A stretch of 64,000 bases of DNA, from positions 1,674,001-1,738,000 of the forward strand of contig NZ_CP034692.1 of NCBI RefSeq assembly GCF_004114375.1. Direction: 5' to 3'. This DNA comes from Halorubrum sp. BOL3-1 (GTDB taxonomy: Archaea > Halobacteriota > Halobacteria > Halobacteriales > Haloferacaceae). The notes below the pieces were generated by a model. That model had not been told where the DNA came from. It searched no databases and saw only the letters and a list, made by a program, of their open reading frames with translations. This document shows, one piece after another, positions 19,636 to 19,789 of this stretch. The first letter of the stretch is position 1; the number at the start of each line of letters is the position of its first letter. A program made the translations under genes and the position numbers.

Positions 19636-19789
19636 GTCTTACATCCGCCGGTGGTTTTATATATTTAGACTCGGTTGATTGGTATGCGTAAGACGGTCGT
19701 CTTACAGACAGCGTCCGACGTGGGTCGAAATCCCGCGTTCGGGCGGCCCAGCGCTGTAAGACACACGCGGCGCGTGGTCGCCGTCTTAC
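19636..19789 (+). promoter_or_regulatory. Promoter and multi-copy GTAAGAC operator region of cdrS-ftsZ2
   Basis: The 216 nt between cdrL and cdrS hold five copies of the 7-mer GTAAGAC/GTCTTAC: 19636-19642 (reverse), an 18-bp palindrome GTAAGACGGTCGTCTTAC at 19688-19705 (two copies), and a spaced inverted pair at 19756-19762 and 19783-19789 with CACGC-GGC-GCGTG nested inside. The TATA box TTTTATATAT is at 19655-19664, placing the transcript start about 19685-19692, at the palindrome. That leaves a 5' leader of about 110 nt before cdrS, unusual in a mostly leaderless genome. A natural reading is an operator for RHH proteins CdrL or CdrS. Confidence 0.75.

Follow-up and report, generated by a model that had tools for sequence, protein, structure and literature searches.

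The operators of bacterial RHH proteins (Arc, MetJ and CopG) consist of short boxes spaced by roughly one turn of the helix, in inverted or direct orientation. In the division of archaea that use FtsZ, the cdrS-ftsZ2 locus is a known control node. In Hbt. salinarum, ChIP-seq of CdrL gave a single reproducible site, upstream of cdrS-ftsZ2, and CdrL was reported to be restricted to Halobacteria (PMC7439475). In Hfx. volcanii, ftsZ1 and hisB are published targets of CdrS, the 18 CdrS sites given in the available part of the report do not include the cdrS promoter, and a 5' UTR of cdrS is given in a figure legend (PMC8406309). The cdrS-ftsZ2 message is reported to be probably regulated post-transcriptionally and to show decoupled mRNA and ribosome footprints (PMC8303175), and structured leaders were described as not typical of haloarchaea in start-site work (PMC4983044).

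The box array and its conservation

A motif scan of the window (the whole 64 kb stretch of DNA analysed here) placed GTAAGAC matches at 19636 (-), 19688 (+), 19699 (-), 19756 (+) and 19783 (-), which bore out the five GTAAGAC/GTCTTAC boxes at 19636-19789 of the original prediction. The flanking genes were identified as CdrL, CdrS and FtsZ2 by Pfam; the product of 19008-19583 matched CdrL_M (35.1 bits, cut-off 27), DZR and RHH_1, all over cut-off, that of 19803-19979 matched RHH_1, and that of 19987-21219 matched Tubulin and FtsZ_C. The features of the locus are as follows.

19008..19586, + strand: cdrL, regulator with RHH, CdrL_M and double zinc ribbon, adjoining the array (Pfam)
19636..19642, - strand: box 1 (GTCTTAC), 5' of the TATA box and outside the transcript of this promoter (motif scan)
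19655..19666, + strand: TATA-like element TTTTATATATTT (sequence; TTTATA core in the 24-genus alignment)
19688..19705, no strand: GTAAGACGGTCGTCTTAC, palindrome made up of boxes 2 and 3 and placed where transcription is predicted to start; candidate core operator of CdrL
19688..19697, + strand: predicted 5' arm of P1, box 2 and GGU, partner 19780-19789 (fold, flank pairing)
19699..19707, + strand: predicted 5' arm of P2, box 3 and flank, partner 19754-19762 (fold, flank covariation)
19712..19745, + strand: predicted apical hairpin of P2 (fold; mean z -2.22 in 40 genera)
19754..19762, + strand: predicted 3' arm of P2, flank and box 4 (GTAAGAC, 19756-19762; motif scan, fold)
19764..19776, + strand: predicted P3 hairpin between boxes 4 and 5 (fold; mean z -1.39 in 40 genera)
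19780..19789, + strand: predicted 3' arm of P1, flank and box 5 (GTCTTAC, 19783-19789; motif scan, fold)
19791..19797, + strand: GGGGGAA element 5' of the start codon, possibly ribosome-binding (alignment A2)
19803..19982, + strand: cdrS, 59-aa RHH protein (RHH_1; Pfam)
19987..21222, + strand: ftsZ2 (Tubulin, FtsZ_C; Pfam)

Together, the boxes at 19688 and 19699 make up the 18-bp palindrome GTAAGACGGTCGTCTTAC, whose exact sequence is present as a single copy in the genome of the window, and the inverted pair 19756/19783 is placed deeper within the predicted leader. This arrangement, a palindrome at the expected start followed by a second inverted pair, had been predicted and was recovered, the start itself being a prediction. 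The window contained 9 GTAAGAC/GTCTTAC sequences vs 3.07 expected, and the 216-nt gap between cdrL and cdrS contained 5 boxes vs a mean of 0.034 and a maximum of 2 in 20,000 dinucleotide shuffles. Chance clustering of the boxes was ruled out by the shuffles, the window count and the class-wide conservation.

Conservation of the motif upstream of cdrS in relatives had been set beforehand as a check on the prediction, and it was passed both in the genomes of the class and in the named loci. GTAAGAC-N4/5-GTCTTAC was present in 368/391 genomes of the class (once in 366, twice in 2, absent from 23), and the reversed-pattern control was found in 1 of these 391 genomes only. In G239 and G363, the additional copy lies away from cdrS. 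A CdrS match was obtained in 391/391 genomes of the class; at E<=1e-12, 20 of the 23 palindrome-negative genomes had a match and 3 had none. In all 20 with cdrS, inspection by eye revealed that the boxes are kept at a spacer of 2, 3 or 6, as a direct repeat, or with 1-2 bases changed. Among 294 genomes sampled across the phylum, the palindrome was found in 50/53 class members vs 1/241 others.

Eighty named haloarchaeal cdrS loci were collected, 79 of them with a readable start. GTANGAC boxes were present in the gap of 79/79, with 4-6 boxes each (5 in 55 loci, 4 in 22 and 6 in 2). The palindrome was found in 77/79 (spacer 4 in 65, spacer 5 in 12), and the last box was in the GTCTTAC orientation at -15 to -35 in 79/79. 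The box density in these loci was 18.8 per kb in the 260 nt vs 0.52 per kb elsewhere. After the addition of 120 further stretches, 195 loci from 59 genera were analysed, and named and unnamed loci share some species. Five of the 200 loci (L142-144, L159 and L161) were left out, having no GTANGAC-N2-6-GTCNTAC palindrome; variant boxes are still present in them. The invariance of the first CdrS residues is by construction, since these residues are fixed by the CdrS start pattern that was used for locus finding.

Several lineages showed variants of the arrangement. In Haloquadratum and relatives (L142-L144, L046, L068), direct repeats GTATGAC-N3-GTAAGAC-N3-GTATGAC at 10-bp steps replace the palindrome. 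In family f9 (L147, L148, L151, L153, L156-L158), the spacer of the palindrome is 2-3 bp throughout, not 4-5. The chromosome record CP132292.1 contains two cdrS loci (L036, L039) near both of its ends, which would be explained by a terminal redundancy of ~67 kb in the assembly.

In a palindrome-anchored alignment of 24 genera (one locus each, spacer 4), 14/14 box positions and the preceding C were invariant (2.00 bits), the mean outside the palindrome was 0.46 bits, and a TTTATA element was located at -32 to -27 relative to the palindrome. With the usual archaeal distance from TATA box to start, the TATA-like element TTTTATATATTT at 19655-19666 gives a predicted start at ~19685-19688. The palindrome is thus predicted, from the TATA spacing, to span about +1 to +20 of the transcript. 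The monocistronic cdrS mRNA of Hfx. volcanii was reported at ~250 nt (PMC8406309); this is shorter than the leader (121 nt in L304) plus the 61-codon ORF and counts against the leader, and the 1,500-nt bicistronic band is compatible with the leader length.

CdrL and CdrS as candidate readers

The array lies in the cdrS-ftsZ2 promoter, the region of reported CdrL binding (PMC7439475), and the single site per genome that the CdrL ChIP data require was found in 366/391 genomes. CdrL_M was detected in 33/43 class genomes vs 0/203 others, and a CdrL-like ORF was present immediately 5' of cdrS in 157/159 loci. The beta-strand start of CdrL, MSKITFRAD, was found in 144/151 loci fitting the start pattern, and the residues K3, T5 and R7 were invariant in 24 aligned CdrLs, like the boxes.

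The array and CdrL are both class-restricted, yet two closely related genomes, Halobacteriales archaeon YIM A00013 (L060) and Actinarchaeum halophilum CP071306.1 (L061), carry the array intact without a recognisable CdrL. No profile match to CdrL was obtained in these two genomes at E<=1e-3, and with the CdrL of the closest relative as query (E<=5) nothing was found save one match of the zinc-ribbon region in one genome (E 0.6). They seem to depart from the reported presence of CdrL in all Halobacteria. The two genomes differ at 5/176 sites, and this near-identity makes a recent loss of CdrL possible. These genomes weaken the view that the array exists for CdrL alone.

A CdrS motif, GTCNGAC-N4-GTCNGAC, was derived here from the ftsZ1 and hisB upstream regions. 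Upstream of ftsZ1 it was exact in 23/30 cases and within one mismatch in 28/30, at -63 to -68 from the ATG. G040 had 7 exact matches, among them one at ftsZ1 and one upstream of hisB, and the genome of the window had 3. More of the exact sites in G040 lie before DUF7562 and DUF6432 genes, which suggests additional CdrS targets. The double box was found in 0/195 cdrS upstreams, and no second conserved box of the CdrS type exceeded 8/77 loci at one place in the leader.

That CdrS itself reads the array, as autoregulation, would fit the similar RHH strands of the two proteins (MERVTLRI in CdrS, MSKITFRA in CdrL), the array boxes being one base away from the inferred CdrS box, and the persistence of the array where CdrL was not found. 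We consider it very unlikely, as the cdrS promoter is missing from the 18 CdrS sites in the available part of PMC8406309 and the double box present at ftsZ1 and hisB is absent from the 195 cdrS upstreams. Since the inferred CdrS motif differs from the array and is absent from these upstreams, CdrL appears the likelier reader of the two. The original prediction had proposed a site for CdrL and/or CdrS; the CdrL part is supported by the published ChIP-seq (PMC7439475), and the CdrS part was not supported, given the different motif and its absence from 195 upstreams.

Pairing of the boxes in the predicted leader

The predicted leader of the window folds into a nested structure in which box 2 pairs with box 5 (P1) and box 3 with box 4 (P2). 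Among 40 genera with all four boxes, P1 and P2 occurred together in 35 minimum-energy folds vs 15.2% of 1200 box-fixed shuffles, in which the boxes were kept and the remaining leader was scrambled; the shuffles mostly gave the local hairpin 2:3 (55.7%). L033, in which cdrS is cut off, was left out of all leader counts, and 8 loci without a strict box 5 were left out of the P1 counts. Both helices formed in 168/187 loci with box 5, and the local hairpin H1 was rare in the minimum-energy folds (11/187 loci). In the 40 genera, structure was confined to the leader (z -2.22 for the P2 apex, -1.39 for P3 and +0.1 for the promoter). The sense strand was weakly favoured over the antisense strand in stability (mean z -3.71 vs -3.29; 37/59, p 0.017). 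A covariance model built from alignment A2 (36 sequences from 37 references, with L082 replaced by the window and L326 omitted) matched the window only at 19685-19804, with 92.2 bits. No match to Rfam was obtained at E<=1 in six relatives, and the two matches obtained for the window at E<=5 were both far under gathering; the predicted leader was thus assigned to no described Rfam family.

A first test, made with the named loci, showed flank pairing that extended past the boxes. With one locus per genus (42 genera), the 5-nt flanks of boxes 3 and 4 were paired at 146/210 positions vs 122.0, a value reached in 0/10,000 within-family shuffles. Where box 1 was present (18 genera), the pairing of these flanks was 69/90 vs 55.3 (p 0), and the box 1/box 4 control in the same genera gave 43/90 vs 45.1 (p 0.80). 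The 3-nt flanks of boxes 2 and 5 were paired at 131/160 vs 127.1, which is borderline within families with one locus per genus (p 0.07); the global shuffle gave p 0.006 and all loci gave p 0. The remaining controls gave 67/200 vs 68.3 for box 4/box 5 and 97/270 vs 93.6 for box 3/box 5. Offset 10 of box 4/box 5, an unplanned position among many tested, also reached p<0.001. On A2, P1 and P2 contained 10 cells changed on both sides vs 3.3 (0/500), with a covariation score of 0.050 vs 0.027 (0/500). Double changes between nearest neighbours were few, and their signal was weak (9/31 paired vs 3/23 in the control). A conserved secondary structure is thus supported by covariation against controls, more strongly for P2 than for P1.

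Two other accounts of these patterns were rejected or weakened. The local hairpins 2:3 and 4:5 were picked by RNAalifold on A2, but as the conserved fold they showed no covariation signal (3 vs 2.4 cells, score 0.043 vs 0.038) and were rare in the minimum-energy folds. The covariation is also poorly explained by a DNA-binding protein whose flank preference differs between lineages, as the flanks of box 1 follow neither those of box 3 (51/140 identical vs 46.8, p 0.19) nor those of box 4.

The five box slots were compared in the 195 loci. Box 1 was GTCTTAC in 84, GTAAGAC in 43, GTCATAC in 33, GTATGAC in 13, another form in 6 and absent from 16, being free in its middle base and orientation, whereas the middle base is fixed in boxes 2, 3 and 5. 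Box 2 was GTAAGAC in 195/195, box 3 GTCTTAC in 192/195, box 5 GTCTTAC in 187/195 and box 4 GTAAGAC in 123/195. The 63 loci without a GTANGAC box 4 retained a GTAAAC-like remnant in 44/63 and at least 9 uninterrupted pairs to box 3 and its flank in 35/63. In 19 sampled genera without a strict box 4, P1 was formed in 15 vs 39.8% of controls, and box 3 paired downstream in 12 vs 18.8% of controls. Conversely, the small-genome loci L160 and L161 have only box 1 and the palindrome, boxes 4 and 5 being absent. An operator without the junction, together with a junction without a box-like box 4, makes the two layers distinguishable.

Near the start codon, the GGxAA columns of the purine-rich element were nearly invariant in A2, and the sequence CCC-AA(A/C)-GGGG beside box 5 in many families could form a small hairpin over the GGGGA element (19790-19797 in the window).

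Proposed reading and comparison with known systems

The computation shows that the palindrome is conserved, is present as a single copy and sits at a promoter, that flanks of the boxes covary and that the fold is preferred; the role of CdrL as reader, the transcription start, a fold in cells and an effect on expression are inferred. The reading that we favour, with somewhat better than even confidence, is a two-layer control region in which the transcribed arms of a CdrL operator would be captured by downstream copies in a structured leader. At the DNA level, the palindrome at the start and box 1, which precedes the TATA box, would together form an operator of 7-bp GTANGAC boxes, most likely read by the neighbour-encoded RHH protein CdrL, whose binding would control initiation. 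At the RNA level, the arms of the palindrome would not remain a local hairpin; box 5 would capture box 2, and box 4 would capture box 3. The closed junction of P1, P2 and P3 would anchor the mRNA 5' end ~14 nt ahead of the start codon, with the purine element and the AUG left outside, and the leader would probably tune the stability or translation of the cdrS-ftsZ2 mRNA. A more far-reaching version is possible, which we hold only tentatively. The 7-nt word would be read as DNA by CdrL and then as RNA arms that are neutralised or used by the downstream copies, and the leader could alternate between two states, the local hairpins (2:3, 4:5) and the long-range junction (2:5, 3:4). Translation or decay of the cdrS-ftsZ2 message would thereby be coupled to transcription of the operator.

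The array might instead consist of operators only, five CdrL sites with boxes 4 and 5 as auxiliary sites (looping or roadblock) and RNA pairing as a by-product of inverted copies. The conservation, the single copy, the CdrL ChIP site (PMC7439475) and the dense boxes at the locus (18.8 vs 0.52 per kb) would all be expected from this. We nevertheless regard it as rather unlikely, as the flanks of boxes 3 and 4 covary by pairing and those of box 1 do not follow, P1 and P2 together seldom arise in box-fixed shuffles (15.2%), many genera have lost box 4 as a box and kept the helix, and the base that is fixed in boxes 2, 3 and 5 is free in box 1. Matching of the flanks could also arise at the DNA level with no RNA function, by template-switch repair of imperfect palindromes or by selection for cruciforms. 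The pairing excess is entirely Watson-Crick, G-U pairs in the covarying flanks not being enriched (12 vs 15.5), so that covariation alone cannot separate RNA from a DNA-level process. The local pairs 2:3 and 4:5 are more closely spaced yet show no flank covariation; this, the restriction of structure to the transcribed side and the slightly more stable sense strand make such a process quite unlikely. In sequence comparison, boxes 2-5 look like the helix arms of a conserved leader RNA whose flanks covary, so the array appears not to be simply an operator array; this apparent leader-RNA role was missed by the original prediction.

The two-layer reading would give a concrete cause for the mismatch between mRNA and ribosome occupancy of cdrS-ftsZ2 (PMC8303175). 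A class-wide single-copy operator would provide a precise CdrL target and a sequence test for any haloarchaeon, and it would be unexpected for haloarchaea that a division operon carries a conserved structured leader. If the switch is real, transcription of an operator would be coupled to translation or decay in a domain where structured leaders are thought untypical. No description of this motif or leader structure at cdrS-ftsZ2 was found in a search of titles and abstract openings, which covered little of the subscription journals and bioRxiv.

Compared with the operators of Arc, MetJ and CopG, the array likewise consists of short boxes about one turn apart; it differs in its spacer of 2-6 bp, in one box standing apart upstream of the TATA box and in the copies in the leader. 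Like the structured cis-regulatory leaders in Rfam, the predicted leader has a conserved junction before the start codon with covarying helices; it differs in having no Rfam match (E<=1, six relatives) and in helix arms that double as operator copies. The CdrS regulon of Hfx. volcanii (Liao et al. 2021, PMC8406309) also involves a symmetric RHH double box, and the 7-bp boxes inferred for it are 11 bp apart, as in the palindrome. The inferred CdrS box differs as GTCNGAC at about -50 vs GTANGAC over the start in the array, the cdrS promoter being an unlisted target in the available part of that report. The control by CdrL in Hbt. salinarum (Darnell et al. 2020, PMC7439475) involves the same locus, the same neighbouring regulator and one ChIP site in the genome, upstream of cdrS. 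No DNA motif is given in the available part of that report; the present analysis adds the array of boxes, its conservation as a single copy across the class and the predicted leader RNA, and the new point is that the boxes are most likely both operator and arms of a conserved leader RNA.
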